A stretch of DNA of 14,759 nt from positions 1-14,759 of the forward strand of contig JABXKY010000263.1 of the NCBI GenBank assembly GCA_013619005.1, given 5' to 3'. Every line of letters starts with the position of its first letter. Positions within the stretch are counted from its first letter, which is position 1. The notes under the pieces are model-generated. The model saw only the letters and a list, made by a program, of their open reading frames with translations, ran no database searches and had not been told where the DNA came from. Positions 3,984 to 13,253 of the stretch are shown in pieces. The position numbers and the translations under genes are program-made. This DNA is from Candidatus Bathyarchaeota archaeon (GTDB taxonomy: Archaea; Thermoproteota; Bathyarchaeia; TCS64).

Positions 3984-4454
3984 CTATTCCTCGGGCTGTT
4001 TTACCAGGAATAGGCAGTGTTTGTCGTCCTTGGTCAGTATCTCGGGGATCTGGACATCTATGTCAGGACGGTATGTCTGCCAGAAGGCGTGGTGGAAGTA
4101 CTGGCAGTAAAGCAGCCCTACATCGTTGCATCCCCTCTCACGCCAGATGCGCTCATGGGTGCACAGGTACGTGTAGCTCCTCAGGAAGTTGTCGGTGTAC
4201 TCGACCCTGTCCTTCTCCGTCTCGGGGTGCCCCGGTAAGTCGTAGTGGTCAAAAAGGCTCCTCATGTTGATGGGTCTTCCCTCCTCCTCGTGACGCTTCC
4301 TGAGGCGCTCACCCCTTATCTTGCCGTAGTTCTGGATGGCCCTTATGAGCGCAGCTTTTCCTTCCTCGCCGAAGCTGTCCACCATCTCACGAGCCATCGT
4401 GCTGTACATTAGGGCCCAGAGATCGGCGAACTCAGCGATATCGTCTTGTGCCAT
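3984..4454 (-). CDS. L-2-amino-thiazoline-4-carboxylic acid hydrolase family protein
   Basis: 156 residues. The order of conserved blocks matches the ATC-hydrolase family: an N-terminal helical part with W13ALMYSTMAREMVDSFGEEG and RAIQNYGKIRGERL, then SLFDHYDLPG (66-75), then a cysteine-containing half. That half has C98 (LCTHERIW), C109, YC117 before YFHHAF, YRPDI, and a final DDKHC147LF block where the family usually has GD..C.F. The founding bacterial enzyme opens the thiazoline ring of ATC on the way to L-cysteine. Most homologues, especially archaeal ones, are uncharacterised, so the substrate is not known here. The ATG is preceded by GGGGAT at a usable distance and by a TATA-like element. 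It is divergent from the first MFS gene, sharing a 129-base intergenic region. Confidence 0.75.
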   Translation of the reverse strand: MAQDDIAEFADLWALMYSTMAREMVDSFGEEGKAALIRAIQNYGKIRGERLRKRHEEEGRPINMRSLFDHYDLPGHPETEKDRVEYTDNFLRSYTYLCTHERIWRERGCNDVGLLYCQYFHHAFWQTYRPDIDVQIPEILTKDDKHCLFLVKQPEE

Positions 4455-6164: not shown

Positions 6165-7400
6165 ATGGGAGTCCGAAGCAGCCTTAAAAATGGGAGAGAC
6201 TTCCTCGCGAGACAGTCCCATAACTACAGGATGATGATAGTCAGGAGCGGCGGGGGCATGTTCCTGTTCAACCTGACGGGCCAGTACAGCAGCATATTCA
6301 CCAAGGCGCTAGGGGCGGACAACATGACCATCGCGTGGCTGAGCAGCGTCAGCAGCTTCATCAGCATGCTCATCAGCATGCCCGTGGGGTACGTCACCGA
6401 CAACTATAACCTCAAGAAGGTGATGGGGGCGGGGCTGTTCCTCAACATCGCCATGGTGGGCATGTACGCCTTCGCCCAGGACTGGAGGTGGATATTCGTC
6501 GCCATGGTCATAAACCCGTTCACTATGGCTCTCATGTTCAGGAGCCAGCAGGTCATCATAACAAATGAGCTCGACAGCGCCGAGAGGGCGAGGGGAATGG
6601 GGGTCAGGATGCAGATAGCCATGATCCTTGGCCTGATCAGCCCGATCCCGGCCGCCTTCCTTGTGAAAAGCTGGGGCGGCCTCACCCTTGAGGGCATCAG
6701 ACCGCTTTACTACATCAGGTTCGTGGGCATGATCATAATCTACAGCTATGTCTACATCAAGCTCACAGATGTCCTGCCTATGCCGAGGGCGAAGAAATCG
6801 ACCGGTTTCATAGATGATTTCAGGGAGGTCCTTGATGAGGGCGGCAGAAAGCTCAAGGTGATGATAGTGGTCGGCGCCCTTGGTGCCCTAGTCTGGTCAA
6901 CGATACAGAGCTTCACGTACCTGTACGCCGCGGAGATCAAGGGAGCCGACGAGCTGATCCTGGGCCTGCTGCCCACGGTTGAAACGATAGCGTTTGTCCT
7001 GTTCGCGACCCCCATGAACAACCTGGCGGATACTAAGGGCAGGAAGTACGCGTTCCTCTTGGTTCGACCGGCGTTGTGGATGTTCTTTGTCCTGGTGATC
7101 CTTGCACCGAACCAGTACTGGCTGCTCGTAGCATGGTTCCTCAGGGGCATCGGAATGAGCACAAGCGCGTACAACACCTTGTTCCTTGAGATGGTGCCAG
7201 CTGAGCAACGGGGCAGGTGGATGGGGCTCAGCAACACGTTCAGCGCGCTGATAAGGATCGGGGCGCCCCTCCTGGGCGGCCTCATGTATGATAGCAACCT
7301 GCCCTGGCTGCTGTTCGCGGTCCCGTTGGCCGTGGATATGTTGGTCCGTATACCCATATTCCACTTCTATGTGCCCGAGACACTCCCGAAGCAGGAGTAG
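6165..7400 (+). CDS. MFS transporter (second, divergent paralogue)
   Basis: 411 residues, with the twelve-helix major facilitator layout and a central hydrophilic loop at about 201-230. The first-half motif A is degenerate (PVGYVTDNYNLKK, 73-85), keeping only the aspartate. The second-half copy is better preserved (NNLADTKGRKYAF, 285-297). VPAEQRGRWMGLSNTFSALI (344-363) parallels the DPEQRAKSIGG block of the 4584-5810 transporter, so the two are distant paralogues. The substrate is unknown. The ATG has a strong GGGGG ribosome site six bases upstream. The gene converges on the third reductive-dehalogenase-like gene, leaving a 93-base gap, so it is not in that operon; any functional link rests on proximity only. 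Confidence 0.9.
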   Translation: MGVRSSLKNGRDFLARQSHNYRMMIVRSGGGMFLFNLTGQYSSIFTKALGADNMTIAWLSSVSSFISMLISMPVGYVTDNYNLKKVMGAGLFLNIAMVGMYAFAQDWRWIFVAMVINPFTMALMFRSQQVIITNELDSAERARGMGVRMQIAMILGLISPIPAAFLVKSWGGLTLEGIRPLYYIRFVGMIIIYSYVYIKLTDVLPMPRAKKSTGFIDDFREVLDEGGRKLKVMIVVGALGALVWSTIQSFTYLYAAEIKGADELILGLLPTVETIAFVLFATPMNNLADTKGRKYAFLLVRPALWMFFVLVILAPNQYWLLVAWFLRGIGMSTSAYNTLFLEMVPAEQRGRWMGLSNTFSALIRIGAPLLGGLMYDSNLPWLLFAVPLAVDMLVRIPIFHFYVPETLPKQE

Positions 7401-7493: not shown

Positions 7494-8651
7494 TTAATTC
7501 CAGTACTCTCGGGGGGCCTTCATCTCGCCGTACCCCATGAGGTCGTCGCTCCAAGCCCAGAGCCTGTTGAGCTGGGGCACGTTCCTGATGAACCACTTGA
7601 CGACGTCATGCACAGGCCCCTTCTTCTTGGCGAAGGCGCAGACCCGGTAACAGACTGTGCAGCTGGTGCCCACCTGGTCCCAGTAGTCCCTGCACTTCTC
7701 CTCGTCGCAGGGCCACCTGAAGGCGCCCGGGTTTGATCCGGGCGGGTCATCCCATGACCGGGGTCCAGGGCCAATGGCGTCCCCGGGGCAATGTTTAGAG
7801 CATTTCTGGCAATCCTCACAGAACTCAAGGATACCCGGGTCGGCCTGTGGGCTCTGGGGCAGGGGCATATCGGTGAATACCTTGCATATCTTGAAGAGCG
7901 GGCCGTCCTGCCAGCTAATAACCCGATTCATCCTCCCCAGGTGGCCGATGCCTGCCTTGAGGGCCATGGGCACGTTCATGGTCATATCGTTCCCTGACGG
8001 TACCGCGTTCCACCCCAGGCCCCTGATGAACTCGGCCACTGTCCCTGCCAGTATGTGCATCCTGCTGTAGGCCATCCCGCCTGCCGCGAATAGGGGCGTC
8101 GGCGTGTACTGGGTCTCCTCGTAGTCGATGGGAACCGTCATGACGATGGCCCACCTGTGGCTTTTAGGGTACACGGCTTTCTCATCTGTCTCGTGGGCGG
8201 TCTCGGCGTCCTCGAATACCACCGGTTTGCCGTCCTTGGTGTGGCTGAAGAACCATCGCTCATCGATCTCGGTGAACCTTACATCCAGGGCGCCGTAGTA
8301 TCTGGCGGCCTTGCTGATGACCCTGGCTGTCTCCTCCGAGCCAGCTTCCCATTTTGGGATATCCTCGGGCTTATGCGTGACCCCCAGTGGGCTCCAGCTG
8401 TAGTAGCCCCTGTTCATGCCCTCTGGCTCGCCGTTGGATTGATGGTTTGCGGTATACGCCGCGTCCCTGAAGGCGTAATCAAGGAGGCTGAAGCCAGGTA
8501 ACTCCTGCTCTATCCTCCACTTTTTCCCCTCCTGGGTCTTGTACCCTCGTGGGGTTGACACCCTCGTGCTTCCCCTTGGGTCGTGGCGCTTGTACGAGTC
8601 CTTTACGGGGTAGTTATCCTCGTAGCCGTTCTTTCTGGTCAACTCAGTCAC
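7494..8651 (-). CDS. Reductive dehalogenase catalytic subunit homologue (RdhA-like), third of the tandem
   Basis: 385 residues. The RdhA pattern is complete: PGFSLLDYAF (52-61); the corrinoid-domain core from AYSRMHILAGTVAEFIRGLGW (194-214) through PSGND (218-222) and VPMALKAGIGHLGR (227-240); and two ferredoxin-type clusters. The first uses C278, C281, C284 and C288 (CEDCQKCSKHCP); the second uses C320, C331, C334 and C338. Family members reduce organohalides with cobalamin and two iron-sulfur clusters, although some relatives have other roles. There is no Tat signal, so it is cytoplasmic. Counterparts of the PceA Tyr246 and Asn272 are Y195 and N221, but the Arg305 position is Lys254 (GPLFKICKV), unlike the other two copies. 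GTG at 8651 begins one base after the upstream stop, so translation is probably coupled. It lacks the TPF.R tail of its siblings and ends at EYWN. Confidence 0.88.
   Translation of the reverse strand: MTELTRKNGYEDNYPVKDSYKRHDPRGSTRVSTPRGYKTQEGKKWRIEQELPGFSLLDYAFRDAAYTANHQSNGEPEGMNRGYYSWSPLGVTHKPEDIPKWEAGSEETARVISKAARYYGALDVRFTEIDERWFFSHTKDGKPVVFEDAETAHETDEKAVYPKSHRWAIVMTVPIDYEETQYTPTPLFAAGGMAYSRMHILAGTVAEFIRGLGWNAVPSGNDMTMNVPMALKAGIGHLGRMNRVISWQDGPLFKICKVFTDMPLPQSPQADPGILEFCEDCQKCSKHCPGDAIGPGPRSWDDPPGSNPGAFRWPCDEEKCRDYWDQVGTSCTVCYRVCAFAKKKGPVHDVVKWFIRNVPQLNRLWAWSDDLMGYGEMKAPREYWN
7517..7610 (-). repeat. Near-identical 3' tract shared with the second rdhA-like gene (copy A)
   Basis: These 94 bases match 8694-8787 at 91 positions by direct comparison. 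The three mismatches (7562, 7564, 7604) all change the amino acid (Arg/Lys, Leu/Phe, Val/Ile), and there is no silent difference. The tract encodes the C-terminal block from VKWFIRNVPQLN to LMGYGEMK. Much of the rest of the two genes is clearly more diverged. Confidence 0.85.
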
Positions 8652-8652
8652 C

Positions 8653-9843
8653 CTAGGTTCGCCTGAACGGCGTTCTCCAGTACTCCCTGGGATCCTTCAT
8701 CTCGCCGTACCCCATGAGGTCGTCGCTCCAAGCCCAGAACTTGTTGAGCTGGGGCACGTTCCTGATGAACCACTTGACGATGTCATGGGTGAGCCCCTTG
8801 GGCTTGGTGAAGCTGCACGTCCTGAAGCATACGCTGCACGGCGACCCCACCTCGTTCCAGTAGTCGAGGCATCCCTCCTCGTCGCCGTACCACTTGAGTA
8901 CCCCCGGGTTGTTTGCCCGGCAGGCAGCCTCGTAGGTTCTGGGTCCGTATGGCAGGACCTGGGCCGGGCAGTGCCTGGCGCATTTCTCGCAGTCCTCGCA
9001 GAACTTGATTATCCCAGGATGTGCCAGATCGCTCTGGGGTAGCGGCAGGTCCGTGAACACCTTCATGAGGCGCACCAGGGGGCCCCTATCCCATGTGATG
9101 AGCCTTCCCTTTCTACCTGCATGACCTAGGCCGGCTTGGACGGCTATGGGTATGCTCATGGCGGTGTCGTTGCCCATGGGGGTGGCGTGCCACCCGAGGC
9201 CCCTGATGAACTCGGCGAGCTGCCCCGCCAGGTGGTGCATCCTGCTGTACCCCATGTTGGAGGACACCTCCAGCTGGGTGGGGGCGTGCATGAACTCATC
9301 GTACTCCATGGCCACGGTGATGCCGATGACGTGCCTGTGTTTGAGGGGGAAGACGGCTTTCTCCTCCGTCACGTAGCCCTCATCGATCTCCACGTCAAAC
9401 TCCAACGGTTTCCCGTACCTGCTGTGGGTGTAGAACCACCGCTCATCCAGGGTGGTGAACCCGACGCTGTGTGCCCCGAAGTACTTGGCCGCCTTCTCGA
9501 TGATCCTCGCGGCCTCCTCTGGGCTTCCCTCCCACCGGGGGACGTCCTCGGGCTTTGTCACGTGGCCCATGCTCTTCCAGCTGTAGAAGGCTTGGCCCTG
9601 GGTGTCGGTGGTGTCCTCGGGGTACTCGTAGAGGCCCGCGGCTCCGTTGAAAGCGTAATCGACTAGGCTGAACCCCGGTATCTCCTGCCTGATCTTGTCT
9701 GCCCTGTATTCCTCGGCTCCGAACTGGACCACGTTTCCCGTTTTCTCGATGGATTGACCGAAGGCTGTGTTCCTCTGGTCGTACCTCTCGTAGCCTTCCT
9801 TCATGGGGTATAATTCATCAAATGTCCTGGGCAACGTAACCAA
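8653..9843 (-). CDS. Reductive dehalogenase catalytic subunit homologue (RdhA-like), second of the tandem
   Basis: 396 residues, close to both neighbours over the full length. Visible blocks are PGFSLVDYAF (56-65), MGYSRMHHLAGQLAEFIRGL (197-216), MGND (223-226), AGLGHAGRKGRLITW (237-251), VFTDLPLPQ (262-270), then clusters C282/C285/C288/C292 (CEDCEKCARHCP) and C325/C336/C339/C343 (GCLDYW...CSVCFRTC). Y199, N225 and R258 sit at exactly the spacing of the PceA residues Tyr246, Asn272 and Arg305, arguing for a working corrinoid active site. No Tat signal is present, and there is no RdhB gene beside it. The TTG at 9843 has only AGG directly in front; a TTG three codons later (9834) has AGG at better spacing and gives an N-terminus more like that of the first copy. 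Cobalamin dependence and the electron donor are inferred from the family. Confidence 0.9.
   Translation of the reverse strand: MVTLPRTFDELYPMKEGYERYDQRNTAFGQSIEKTGNVVQFGAEEYRADKIRQEIPGFSLVDYAFNGAAGLYEYPEDTTDTQGQAFYSWKSMGHVTKPEDVPRWEGSPEEAARIIEKAAKYFGAHSVGFTTLDERWFYTHSRYGKPLEFDVEIDEGYVTEEKAVFPLKHRHVIGITVAMEYDEFMHAPTQLEVSSNMGYSRMHHLAGQLAEFIRGLGWHATPMGNDTAMSIPIAVQAGLGHAGRKGRLITWDRGPLVRLMKVFTDLPLPQSDLAHPGIIKFCEDCEKCARHCPAQVLPYGPRTYEAACRANNPGVLKWYGDEEGCLDYWNEVGSPCSVCFRTCSFTKPKGLTHDIVKWFIRNVPQLNKFWAWSDDLMGYGEMKDPREYWRTPFRRT
8694..8787 (-). repeat. Near-identical 3' tract shared with the third rdhA-like gene (copy B)
   Basis: Partner of 7517-7610. A 35-base core of it (8747-8781, encoding most of IVKWFIRNVPQL) is also identical in the first copy at 9980-10014. 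All three genes therefore share this core at the nucleotide level. Confidence 0.85.
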
Positions 9844-9885
9844 CCTGAAAAATGAGTGGCTGGGGGATAATAAGATTTGAGAGGA

Positions 9886-11055
9886 TTAGCTTCTCTCAAA
9901 TGGGGTGTCCCAGTACTTCTTGGGGTCGCTCATCTTTCCGTAGCCCAGTAGCTCGTCGGTGTAGGCGAAGAAACCGTTTAGCTGGGGCACGTTCCTGATG
10001 AACCACTTGACGATATCGTGGCTCAAGCCCTTGCTCTTGGTGAAGTTGCACATCCTGAAGCAGATGCTGCACCCCGTGGTCACCTCGTGCCAGTAATCAA
10101 AGCAGCTCTGCTCGTTGCAGTACCACTTGAGGGGCCCGGGGTTGTTGGACTCGTTCTGGGGGTCATATGTCCTTGGACCGTATGGGATCGACTGGCTTGG
10201 GCAGTGCTTTGCGCATTTCTCACATGACTCGCAGAACTCGATGATGCCGCTTGGGGCGGGTGGGCTCTGGAGTAGTGGCATGTCTGTGAAGACCTTGCAT
10301 ATCCTCACGAGGGGCCCGTTCTCCCACGTGATGAGCCTGCCGTTCCTCCCCACGTGTCCAAGGCCGGCTTGGGCTGCCATGGGTACGCTGAGTGCGGTGT
10401 CGTTTCCACAGGGAATTGCGTTCCACCCGAGACCTCTGATGAACTCGGCCAACGTACCTGCGGTTACGTGCATGCGGGCGTATCCCATGTTGCTTGTTAC
10501 CTCGATTGGGGTGGGCGCGTAGCTGTTCTCGTTGAACTCCATGGGGATGGTCATGACGATGACGTGCTTGTGGCTCTCAGGGATGACGATCTTCTCGTCG
10601 TTGATGTAACCCGTCTCCACGTCCTCAAACACTATGGGTTTCCCGTTGCTGTCGTGGCTGTATATCCAACGCTTGTCCATCTTCGTGAACCCAACGTTGA
10701 CTGCGCCGTAATACTGTCCGGCTTTCTTGACGACCTTGGCGTGCTCCTCCGGGGTCTTCTCCCATCGTGGGACCTCATCGGGCTTGACTGATACGCCTAG
10801 GGGCTCCCATGAGTAGTAGCCCGTGTTGGCCCCGTCGTGGTTGTCCGAGGTGTTGGCCGCGTTCTTGAAGCTGATGTCTGGGTGGCTGAAACCGGGTGCC
10901 CCTGCCCTCATCTTGTCCCACACTTTCTTGGTGTAGCTGAAGGTTTCAGCGCCTAGCAATTGTCTCTTGATGCTGAAAGCGGTCTTTCTCCCGTCGAAGC
11001 GCTTGTACTCTTCATTGATAGGGTAATATTCTTCAAATGGTATTCTTTTGCCCAC
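9886..11055 (-). CDS. Reductive dehalogenase catalytic subunit homologue (RdhA-like), first of the tandem
   Basis: 389 residues, first of the three in transcription order. It has PGFSHPDISF (54-63), NMGYARMHVTAGTLAEFIRG (189-208), CGND (216-219), AGLGHVGRNGRLITWENGP (230-248), clusters C275/C278/C281/C285 (CESCEKCAKHCP) and C318/C329/C332/C336, and ends in YWDTPFERS. Y192, N218 and R251 keep the spacing of the PceA Tyr/Asn/Arg triad. Classical respiratory RdhA proteins are about 450-550 residues with a Tat leader; this one is shorter and starts directly at the catalytic domain, so a cytoplasmic enzyme is expected. The GTG start is supported by a GGGGGG ribosome site five bases upstream and by alignment with the sibling N-termini. 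It has its own TATA-like element 58 bases or less after the DUF1634 gene. A 42-base gap separates it from the second copy. Confidence 0.9.
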   Translation of the reverse strand: MGKRIPFEEYYPINEEYKRFDGRKTAFSIKRQLLGAETFSYTKKVWDKMRAGAPGFSHPDISFKNAANTSDNHDGANTGYYSWEPLGVSVKPDEVPRWEKTPEEHAKVVKKAGQYYGAVNVGFTKMDKRWIYSHDSNGKPIVFEDVETGYINDEKIVIPESHKHVIVMTIPMEFNENSYAPTPIEVTSNMGYARMHVTAGTLAEFIRGLGWNAIPCGNDTALSVPMAAQAGLGHVGRNGRLITWENGPLVRICKVFTDMPLLQSPPAPSGIIEFCESCEKCAKHCPSQSIPYGPRTYDPQNESNNPGPLKWYCNEQSCFDYWHEVTTGCSICFRMCNFTKSKGLSHDIVKWFIRNVPQLNGFFAYTDELLGYGKMSDPKKYWDTPFERS

Positions 11056-11066: not shown

Positions 11067-11090
11067 GTGTCCCGCTTCCTTTGATTGTGG

Positions 11091-11104
11091 ATATATTAAA
11101 TATG
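11091..11104 (-). promoter_or_regulatory. TATA-like element before the rdhA-like operon
   Basis: The minus strand reads CATATTTAATATAT, centred about 42 bases before GTG 11055. It lies in the 58-base gap after the DUF1634 gene. It would give a leader of about 15 bases that includes the G-rich ribosome site, so the three rdhA-like genes could be expressed independently of the permease genes. Confidence 0.55.
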
Positions 11105-11113
11105 TTGCATTTT

Positions 11114-11458
11114 TCAGCCGACGCCGAGGATCATGCTGAGCACCAGGACGCTCAGAACCATGCCAGTGATTACAGTGAAGGTCCAGTCCTTTGATACGAA
11201 GAAAACGGCCACGCTGGCCACGATCCTGAGCAGCGGGGTTCCCACGAGGACCATGAATCCAAGGAATATCACATGACTCGGCTCTAGGAAGGGGGCTCCG
11301 AATATCATCCAGTTGAGCTCAAACATGTCCACTGGGCACGAGTTGTCCCCTGTTACCATGAACAGGACCAACCCGATGAATATGAGAACCCCGCTTAAAG
11401 AGACGCTTGCCTGCATGAGCCGGGATATGAATAGCTCCATGTTTTTGTGGTCTCTCAA
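11114..11458 (-). CDS. DUF1634 membrane protein
   Basis: 114 residues with three hydrophobic segments (about 15-35, 57-82 and 90-112). The pattern matches DUF1634: an N-terminal SRLMQASVSLSGVLIFIGLVL helix, a central VIFLGFMVLVGTPLLRIVASV helix with the conserved TP.LR, and a final DWTFTVITGMVLSVLVLS helix. Such proteins are frequently encoded directly after TSUP permeases and are presumed accessory subunits, though their role has not been shown. The TTG start at 11458 overlaps the permease stop codon (TTGA), indicating translational coupling. An in-frame ATG at 11440 (MELFISRL) is an alternative start. Confidence 0.82.
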   Translation of the reverse strand: MRDHKNMELFISRLMQASVSLSGVLIFIGLVLFMVTGDNSCPVDMFELNWMIFGAPFLEPSHVIFLGFMVLVGTPLLRIVASVAVFFVSKDWTFTVITGMVLSVLVLSMILGVG

Positions 11459-12300
11459 AATAGTCCAGCCCCTGATACTATCATTCTTAACCCCAAGATT
11501 AGGAGAACGACGACGAACAGTTGTTTTAGGAACAGCCCCTGTATGTGCCTGGTAGACCTTGCCCCGAGGTATGAACCGATTAATGTTCCGAGGACAACGG
11601 GCGCCGTTATGAAGAAATCGCAGTAGCCATGCCTCAGGTACACCAACGCGCTCGCGGATGCCGTTACCCCTATCATGAAGTTGCTCGTCGCCACTGATAC
11701 CTTCATGGGGATACTGCTCACGACGTTCATAGCCGGCACCTTGATCCCGCCGCCCCCTATGCCGAGTAGCCCCGATACGATGCCCGCGATGTAGCTGATC
11801 AGGAATGTTGGAAGTGAGTGATGCACACCGTAGCTCACCTGTTCGCCTGATGCCTCGTCCCAGTAGTCTCCTCCCAGATCCAGTTTATCAGCGAGCCAGT
11901 CGTTTGGCATGCTTGTCCAGCTCTTGTTTGTGTTTCTCATCTGGGTCCACATGGTGATGGAGGCGTAGAGCAGGGAGGCACCGAACAGTGTTTGAAGAAC
12001 CGATTCACCTGCAACGCTCATCAGGGATGCACCTGAAAGAGCCCCTAGAGTTGTAGCTAGCTCCAGGAACATCCCGAGCTTGGTGTTGGTGATCTCATTT
12101 TTGACATAGACAGAGGTGGCTGCGCTACTCGTGGCGACAACGGCGATGATGCTCGCGCCTGCCGCGTAATGAATTGGTATGTCAAGTAAGAATACGAGTA
12201 AGGGAACCAGGATAACCCCTCCACCTAGCCCCAGCAATGCGCCAAGAAACCCCGAGAATATGGCGATTATTAAGGCGAACATCGTGAACGCGGGGGTCAT
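11455..12300 (-). CDS. TSUP family permease (sulfite exporter TauE/SafE-like)
   Basis: 281 residues with the internal duplication typical of TSUP transporters. The first repeat has GFLGALLGLGGGVILVPLLV (17-36) followed by AAGASIIAVVATSSAATSVY. The second has GIVSGLLGIGGGGIKVPAMN (173-192) followed by VATSNFMIGVTASASALVYL. A hydrophilic loop at about 120-162 separates the halves, and the protein is in the cytoplasmic membrane. Family substrates include sulfite, organosulfonates, thiosulfate and other small anions; which applies here is not readable. ATG 12300 is at leaderless distance from a TATA element, with a perfect inverted repeat between them. The divergent FilR1-type regulator is the obvious candidate to control it. 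Confidence 0.9.
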   Translation of the reverse strand: MTPAFTMFALIIAIFSGFLGALLGLGGGVILVPLLVFLLDIPIHYAAGASIIAVVATSSAATSVYVKNEITNTKLGMFLELATTLGALSGASLMSVAGESVLQTLFGASLLYASITMWTQMRNTNKSWTSMPNDWLADKLDLGGDYWDEASGEQVSYGVHHSLPTFLISYIAGIVSGLLGIGGGGIKVPAMNVVSSIPMKVSVATSNFMIGVTASASALVYLRHGYCDFFITAPVVLGTLIGSYLGARSTRHIQGLFLKQLFVVVLLILGLRMIVSGAGLF

Positions 12301-12316
12301 ACCGTAAACCTACGGT
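12301..12316. promoter_or_regulatory. Inverted repeat, candidate operator of the TSUP gene
   Basis: ACCGTAAACCTACGGT has perfect six-base arms (ACCGTA/TACGGT) around a four-base centre. It occupies the bases between the TSUP TATA element and its ATG, where a bound dimer would block transcription initiation. The dimeric HTH regulator encoded at 12408 is a natural candidate ligand. I noticed no second full copy in the window. Confidence 0.5.
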
Positions 12317-12320
12317 CAAT

Positions 12321-12332
12321 ATTATTTATATA
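12321..12332 (-). promoter_or_regulatory. TATA box of the TSUP-DUF1634 genes
   Basis: The minus strand reads TATATAAATAAT, centred about 27 bases before ATG 12300. This predicts a leaderless or nearly leaderless transcript. No Shine-Dalgarno is visible in front of the ATG. Confidence 0.65.
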
Positions 12333-12407
12333 GTTCTGAAAAACCATAATCCACCCTCATTCCGTGAAACAAGCCCTCAAACAGGTTAATACCAATAATA
12401 GACCAAT

Positions 12408-13253
12408 ATGCAGTCCAAATACAGCCAAAACTCAAGGGTAAGGGTTATCTGTTTTTCAATGACAGTAGATACGATGTCAAGTTTTTACGACCTGATGTTC
12501 GAGGTAAGCAACGAGGAACGGGTTCGAATACTAAGGGTGATAGAGAAAAACCGAAACAGCTTCTCGGGTATCGCGCGCGAGCTTGATATCACGACCCAGG
12601 AGGTTAGCCGCCACTTCAACAGGTTGATGGAGGCGGGTCTCACAACGCGGGACAGGGAAGGCTTCCCGTCCCTCACACCTTTCGGCAGCGTCATTCTGAG
12701 ACAGTTAGAGTCCGCGAGGTTCACCAGCGATCACAGGGACTATTTCGTCTCGCACCAAGCGGACTGGTTGCCGGATATGTTCCTCTCAAGGCTTGGGGAG
12801 CTGTCAGGTCTCAGGTTCCGGGACGACGTCATGGTCACTGTAAGCGATATCATCAGGATACTCCAAGAGGCAGAGGAGTACCTGTTTGACATCAATATGC
12901 CTTACGTAGCAGCCGCTTTCCCACACATAAGGGACGCCTACGATAGGGGGATACCTGGAAAGTTCCTTCACGGACGAGATCTGAGGGTCCCAGATGAGAT
13001 GCAGGGTGTTAGGGATGAATCATTCACCGATGAATTTGTGAGAGAGATATCCCGGAGGGGGGTCTTTGAGGAAAGATACCTAGAGACGGATGTGGTGCTA
13101 TACATGAACGAGAAGGAGGTCGCGGTCCTGTGCTTCCCCACGTTGAACAATCAATACGATTTCGCCGGGTTCACTGGGGATGACCCGTCTGCGCATGAGT
13201 GGTGCAGGGACCTGTTCCGTCATTTGTGGGAGAAAGGCCGCCAGATTAGCTAA
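12408..13253 (+). CDS. Winged-HTH transcriptional regulator with FilR1-type (DUF1724) sensor domain
   Basis: 281 residues. An ArsR-like winged HTH lies at about 33-95: NEERVRILRVIEKNRNSFSG, then IARELDITTQEVSRHFNRLMEAGLTTRD as the helix-turn-helix, then LTPFGSVIL. The rest (about 115-280) matches the FilR1 middle/DUF1724 domain of archaeal regulators, with a central EAEEYLFDINMPY block, EERYLETDVVLYMNEKEVAV, FPTLNNQYDFAGFTGDDPSAHEWCRDLF and a final helix. Members bind DNA as dimers and are thought to sense small ligands through the second domain. The ATG at 12408 gives an N-terminal extension unlike the family; in-frame ATGs at 12461 and 12476 (MSSFYDLMF) are good alternatives. None has a clear ribosome site. 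Divergent placement next to the TSUP gene suggests local control. Confidence 0.85.
   Translation: MQSKYSQNSRVRVICFSMTVDTMSSFYDLMFEVSNEERVRILRVIEKNRNSFSGIARELDITTQEVSRHFNRLMEAGLTTRDREGFPSLTPFGSVILRQLESARFTSDHRDYFVSHQADWLPDMFLSRLGELSGLRFRDDVMVTVSDIIRILQEAEEYLFDINMPYVAAAFPHIRDAYDRGIPGKFLHGRDLRVPDEMQGVRDESFTDEFVREISRRGVFEERYLETDVVLYMNEKEVAVLCFPTLNNQYDFAGFTGDDPSAHEWCRDLFRHLWEKGRQIS

Follow-up and report, generated by a model that had tools for sequence, protein, structure and literature searches.

The contig JABXKY010000263.1 of a Candidatus Bathyarchaeota archaeon (assembly GCA_013619005.1; 14,759 nucleotides, all of which were analysed and are called the window here) carries three genes for reductive dehalogenase (RdhA) homologues in a row, and we read these with moderate confidence as encoding three separate cytoplasmic PceA-like reductive dehalogenases, each with a corrinoid and two [4Fe-4S] clusters, that together form a substrate-diversified set. 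The contig belongs to a 1.75-Mb draft genome of 370 contigs with 85% completeness and 6.6% contamination. All three genes are intact and under purifying selection, with ratios of nonsynonymous to synonymous substitution rates (dN/dS) of 0.04–0.10 in comparisons with the loci L008 and L045. The lengths of the three open reading frames (ORFs) and the gaps between them, 42 bases from RdhA1 to RdhA2 and a single base, directly visible in the letters, from RdhA2 to RdhA3, are exactly those given in an initial annotation made from the sequence. Each protein has a catalytic Tyr/Asn/(Arg or Lys) set and both cluster motifs and lacks an export signal, the gene order TauE-DUF1634-rdhA1-rdhA2-rdhA3 is recurrent, the three paralogues are of separate ancestry, and RdhA3, as modelled, has the fold of PceA.

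The enzyme class is well supported, and corrinoid binding and cleavage of a carbon–halogen bond are predicted from it. RdhA1, RdhA2 and RdhA3 scored 227, 202 and 204 bits against the reductive dehalogenase model TIGR02486 (curated cut-off 160.35) and 45, 52 and 31 against PF13486 (cut-off 24.3). Because a TIGR02486 search at E 0.001 also matches 11 of 14 control genomes, with 0 of 14 over the cut-off, a protein was counted as RdhA only if it scored over that cut-off. PceA was the best relative by sequence in the Protein Data Bank (PDB), with E values of 8e-57 (RdhA1), 3e-52 (RdhA2) and 1e-49 (RdhA3), and the identity to PceA in structural alignments was 28–31%. Among the chains ranked by Foldseek, the model of RdhA3, the one protein whose structure was modelled, was closer in fold to PceA than to the catabolic NpRdhA. 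Several near relatives bear the source name 'epoxyqueuosine reductase', and the initial annotation had held that placement of all three proteins inside the QueG clade would overturn its view. There is practically no chance that they are QueG-like tRNA epoxyqueuosine reductases: the QueG model TIGR00276 gave 41, 40 and 38 bits against a cut-off of 200, QueG lies outside all three in the RdhA phylogeny (100/99), and the fold likewise led us to reject this identity.

The eight Fe-S cysteines of the two four-cysteine clusters, already noted in the first reading of the sequence, are complete in each protein. The last residue of the second motif is N, S or A in the window proteins and P in the consensus published in PMC6797604 (CXXCXXXCP). 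In the alignment columns, Tyr192, Asn218 and Arg251 of RdhA1 match Y246, N272 and R305 of PceA; RdhA2 has Tyr, Asn and Arg at these positions and RdhA3 has Tyr, Asn and Lys. N272 is presumably an active-site residue of PceA. The Tyr and Arg of PceA are described as important for activity (PMC10624902), and Y426 and K488 as key residues of NpRdhA (PMC10463259). The Lys of RdhA3 aligns with the NpRdhA residue at which the wild-type and K488Q entries disagree, and it is found in 9 of the 9 rows of the RdhA3 clade (W_RdhA3, L008, L048, L050, P0125, P0126, P0127, P0134 and P0137). Other variants of the active site were seen among the homologues: a distinct RdhA type of 421–443 residues (L051, L055 and L060) has Ala at the PceA Arg305 site, and in an RdhA of G010 (L048, 6898–8082) the catalytic Tyr is replaced by Phe.

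No RRxFxK motif for twin-arginine translocation (Tat) was found in RdhA1–3 or in their upstream in-frame extensions to the previous stop (14–25 codons), nor do these extensions hold a hydrophobic stretch; the same motif scan detected RRxFxK in 3/3 bacterial RdhAs (two from Sulfurospirillum, one from Dehalococcoides). The reported lack of a Tat leader is therefore upheld for alternative starts as well, which had been named as a place where a Tat signal or an anchor might come to light. TatC is encoded in the window's genome. The maximum 17-residue hydropathy within the N-terminal 90 residues of the three proteins is 0.07–0.91, and by this measure none has an N-terminal transmembrane helix before the RdhA domain. 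The same genus also has five RdhAs of 455–502 residues with hydrophobic N-terminal stretches (L062–L065 in G006, L066 in G001), where the maximum within the first 130 residues reaches 2.3–2.9 by hydropathy alone, so that soluble and membrane-anchored RdhA types seem to coexist in one genus. The label 'cytoplasmic-type' in the initial annotation calls for caution: the proteins look soluble and have no export signal, but the fold, catalytic core and C-terminal quinone-site residues are PceA-like rather than of the catabolic NpRdhA/BhbA kind.

The accompanying claim that no RdhB gene lies nearby stands in that the window holds no recognisable RdhB (the genome was not searched for unlinked rdhB), but a small hydrophobic gene does adjoin the array. 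This gene, which encodes a DUF1634 protein with a peak hydropathy of 2.7, lies 58 bp upstream of RdhA1 and overlaps the TauE gene by 4 bases. In size and distance it would pass the neighbourhood criteria for rdhB described in PMC3939436 (short, 2–3 transmembrane segments, within 2 kb). An identity as RdhB was nevertheless rejected, since synteny follows TauE and not RdhA: among 20 DUF1634 loci from 61 genomes, TauE lies within ~1.5 kb in 18 and RdhA in 3, with neither partner at L095 and L096 and with L100 and L101 below the DUF1634 cut-off. A comparison with PDB sequences gave no match to any PceB chain, and no ExE motif was seen in the protein by eye. It is best read as a TauE partner that could pass for RdhB, and the case suggests that neighbourhood rules for rdhB could yield false positives.

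The C-terminus of the window proteins is of the respiratory type. At the sites of the DhPceA residues described as lying near menaquinone (K489, H495, R499, D515 and Y520; PMC10624902), RdhA1, RdhA2 and RdhA3 all have K/H/K/D/Y, and of the 50 other rows of their clade all 50 have the K and the H, 47 have the K at site 499, and 48 each have the D and the Y. Four catabolic rows keep the R and D but never the K, H and Y, in place of which they carry L, E and R or N, a pattern that argues against a simple catabolic reading of the window proteins. Five short Bathyarchaeal RdhAs (357–381 residues) lack most of the C-terminal segment. Such residues do not by themselves show quinone use, because some of them are reported to be conserved in quinone-free organisms too (PMC10624902). 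Reduction linked to the inner face of the membrane, with the C-terminal two-helix element at the cytoplasmic leaflet, electrons from a quinol or another lipid carrier, and an anchor supplied by DUF1634, TauE or an unlinked protein, would nonetheless account for the near-universal retention of these residues in the clade, for the strongly amphipathic first C-terminal helix (moment 0.66–0.67 vs 0.37 in DhPceA and 0.32 in BhbA) and for a hydrophobic protein encoded directly upstream. The residues may be structural, however, DUF1634 goes with TauE, and DhPceA has the more amphipathic second C-terminal helix; we regard this mechanism as unlikely, though worth keeping in view. It is a doubtful proposition, too, that the proteins represent an additional, inner-face membrane class of archaeal PceA-like enzymes without Tat or RdhB that has kept the quinone-site helix pair, draws on a lipid-soluble or membrane-protein donor and uses corrinoid scavenged by cells that cannot make it.

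The ancestry of the three paralogues bears on whether they act separately. The tree comprised 76 rows (3 from the window, 42 from loci, 9 references and 22 of the 153 proteins P0001–P0153), with L007, L011, L013, L044, L056, L068, L078 and the cut RdhA3 of L045 left out as duplicates or fragments, and with long branches for QueG, the Dehalococcoides row, L074 and the catabolic rows. The window paralogues fall inside a 53-row soluble RdhA clade (99/100) that is distinct from the bacterial catabolic group, and there they belong to three separate clades of 6, 8 and 9 rows (100/100 each). Recent tandem duplication was rejected, as pairwise identities among the three are only 50–56% and each has closer relatives elsewhere. 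RdhA over the cut-off, at E 1e-45 or better, occurs in at least 56 of 256 genomes of the class (8 candidates scored per genome), and the close relatives of RdhA1 in five named loci all come from Candidatus Bathyarchaeota metagenome-assembled genomes (MAGs). Two further relatives, P0028 of RdhA1 and P0137 of RdhA3, are assigned to a Patescibacteria MAG, for which transfer and mis-binning are both possible.

A second genome (L008 = L044) has the gene order of the window, with the divergent regulator included. In a third (L007 = L045), a short contig carries the cluster, truncated in TauE at one end and in RdhA3 at the other. Directly adjacent rdhA arrays were found in these 3 genomes, all of one genus, and contig ends may hide others; the cut third array gene belongs to G001, and P0007, P0084 and P0127, for all of which the longest contig is given as 10810 bases, may represent a fourth array. 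Orthologues of each paralogue also occur without the other two beside them: L009 and L010, both short contigs, for RdhA1, L061 and L069 for RdhA2, and L048 and L050 for RdhA3. In G002 (L061) and G007 (L069), the place next to PolX and the divergent regulator is taken by a single RdhA, the RdhA2 orthologue, from which we infer that the array probably grew around RdhA2.

The initial annotation had offered a heteromeric enzyme and a substrate-diversified set as alternatives. Tight spacing and an order kept in all three genomes, which belong to one genus, with a possible fourth array, would suit one obligate heteromer of RdhA1, RdhA2 and RdhA3 with divided roles, yet we consider this very unlikely because the orthologues stand alone and the clades are separate. 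In addition, every paralogue has the full catalytic and cluster set and none resembles a non-catalytic subunit, and G002 (93% complete) has the RdhA2 orthologue with no orthologue of RdhA1 or RdhA3 among its two over-cut-off matches. Of the two alternatives, it is the diversified set that is favoured.

The features of the locus are listed in Table 1. The start of RdhA3 probably lies ~3 codons later than listed, giving ~382 residues, because its four closest database relatives have 382. The TATA-like sequence CTATATAAATA precedes the TauE start by 22 to 33 bases and is a candidate promoter of the TauE side; a second TATA-like stretch was seen at 11089–11105, between DUF1634 and RdhA1, from which the rdhA genes may have a promoter of their own. 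A search for a regulator-binding palindrome near the divergent promoter gave two inverted repeats, both weak. The FilR1 middle domain of the regulator is a weak match under the cut-off (PF08350, E 0.0016), and homologues of the regulator adjoin RdhA in L044, L061 and L069. Two major facilitator superfamily (MFS) genes lie downstream of RdhA3 in convergent orientation. Farther off, at 3984–4454 of the window, is a gene of the L-2-amino-thiazoline-4-carboxylic acid hydrolase family (PF14196), and a 68% identical PF14196-type gene was found near the 421-residue RdhA of another genus (L055).

Table 1. Features of the rdhA cluster and its neighbours (window positions).
Feature	Position	Strand	Remarks
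RdhA1	9886-11055	minus	389 aa; PceA-like; orthologues L008, L045, L009, L010
RdhA2	8653-9843	minus	396 aa; PceA-like; orthologue of lone RdhA in L061 (G002) and L069 (G007)
RdhA3	7494-8651	minus	385 aa as listed; PceA-like; Lys at PceA Arg305 position
DUF1634 protein	11114-11458	minus	114 aa; hydrophobic; PF07843 E 1.1e-18
TauE/SafE-family permease	11455-12300	minus	281 aa; PF01925 E 1.2e-49
Divergent intergenic region	12301-12407	.	TATA-like CTATATAAATA at 12323-12333, read directly
ArsR-like winged-helix regulator	12408-13253	plus	281 aa; PF01022 E 3.4e-8; divergent from cluster
MFS transporter	6165-7400	plus	PF07690; convergent neighbour of RdhA3; tie to system uncertain

In the favoured reading of three separate cytoplasmic enzymes, small organohalides would enter the cell, bind next to Co(I) in a base-off corrinoid and give up halide. 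The electrons would come from a cytoplasmic donor of low potential, ferredoxin being the likeliest, and pass through both [4Fe-4S] clusters. The three active sites would differ in substrate, that of RdhA3 by the exchange of Arg for Lys; the winged-helix protein would regulate the cluster, and TauE-DUF1634 would carry an anion tied to the reaction, either the released halide or an acidic product.

Several points weigh against this reading. The retained quinone-site residues would fit a membrane-linked role too, and the tree joins the 53-row clade only weakly to the PceA-type references (82/47), which leaves sequence, fold and residues as the grounds for calling the proteins PceA-like. The substrates, products and electron donor of RdhA1–3 are all putative, and no ferredoxin or reductase partner was found among the ten window proteins scanned. 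Corrinoid supply is a further difficulty. CobS was found in 0 of the 19 genomes of the window's family and in 4 of the 31 searched, CbiB in 1 of 19 and 5 of 31, and FecCD over the cut-off in 1 of 19 and 7 of 31, with weak FecCD matches below the cut-off in four further family genomes; the absences of these three are weakened by the draft state of the genomes, yet 10 of the 19 family genomes are >90% complete. Proteins with a B12-binding domain occur in 31/31 genomes, with seven matches in the window's genome, and the number of RdhAs per genome reaches ten, in G006. Corrinoid proteins are present, and the three gene families searched leave the source of the cofactor unexplained.

The MFS genes add little. 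Around 40 RdhA loci, 18 were counted in 406 kb where the MFS matches of ten genomes predict 10.7, a modest excess that again does not help the favoured reading and is rough, as several of the loci are orthologues of one another and half-domain matches may have entered the genome counts. Of 45 tabulated RdhA genes, 12 have an MFS gene at a distance of 1.5 kb or less, and RdhA3 and RdhA2 of the window account for two of these. The thinning of overlapping ORFs removed the RdhAs of L072, L075 and L078 from the neighbour table; at L072, an MFS gene lies ~1 kb from the RdhA. With only this excess, MFS as a fixed partner was not upheld. Recurrence of hydrolase-like and MFS genes near other RdhAs, named by eye from sequence starts, might point to RdhA-fold corrinoid enzymes that reduce a bond other than C-halogen, such as C-O or C-S in a natural product, and the literature covered, as far as the sources describe it, has no proven organohalide chemistry for an archaeal RdhA. 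The complete PceA catalytic set of all three proteins and the PceA-like fold argue against such chemistry, which we hold to be distinctly improbable.

Tat-less archaeal RdhAs and Bathyarchaeal rdhA genes are already in print. PMC6472368 describes 22 MAGs, mostly of Aminicenantes and Bathyarchaeota, with 31 putative rdhA genes between them, and reads those of marine-sediment Bathyarchaeota as possible genes for the use of organohalides as electron acceptors; its description includes no array, clade or C-terminal analysis. Thermoplasmatota rdh genes have been reported as well (PMC9239135). Among the matches listed from open-licence PMC papers, we found neither an archaeal tandem rdhA triple nor a linkage of TauE or DUF1634 with rdhA. 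New here are the TauE-DUF1634-rdhA cluster with its three paralogues, the Lys paralogue, the retained quinone-site residues and the unexplained corrinoid supply. As the window proteins retain the active site of PceA together with its quinone-site residues and lack the export and anchoring parts, respiration and cytoplasmic catabolism could be told apart by tests on single proteins.

Compared with PceA of Sulfurospirillum multivorans and Desulfitobacterium hafniense, the window RdhAs are archaeal, stand three in a row and are without Tat signal or recognisable RdhB. The Tat-less RdhAs of Loki- and Thorarchaeota (PMC6737245) and the Smkt1 cluster (PMC3939436) resemble them in Fe-S motifs or a dicluster domain and in archaeal or subseafloor origin, and the tandem triple set distinguishes the window from both systems as these are described. 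RdhAs with N-terminal transmembrane helices (PMC6797604) resemble the homologues in G001 and G006, whereas the window's three have no such stretch. The catabolic RdhAs (NpRdhA, BhbA and JtRdhA) share with the window proteins the lack of Tat and RdhB and, with RdhA3, the Lys. The window proteins differ from these in being much shorter (385–396 residues): they lack a fused reductase and, to judge from their length, a second cobalamin domain. They also keep the C-terminal K/H/Y and form a separate branch of the tree.
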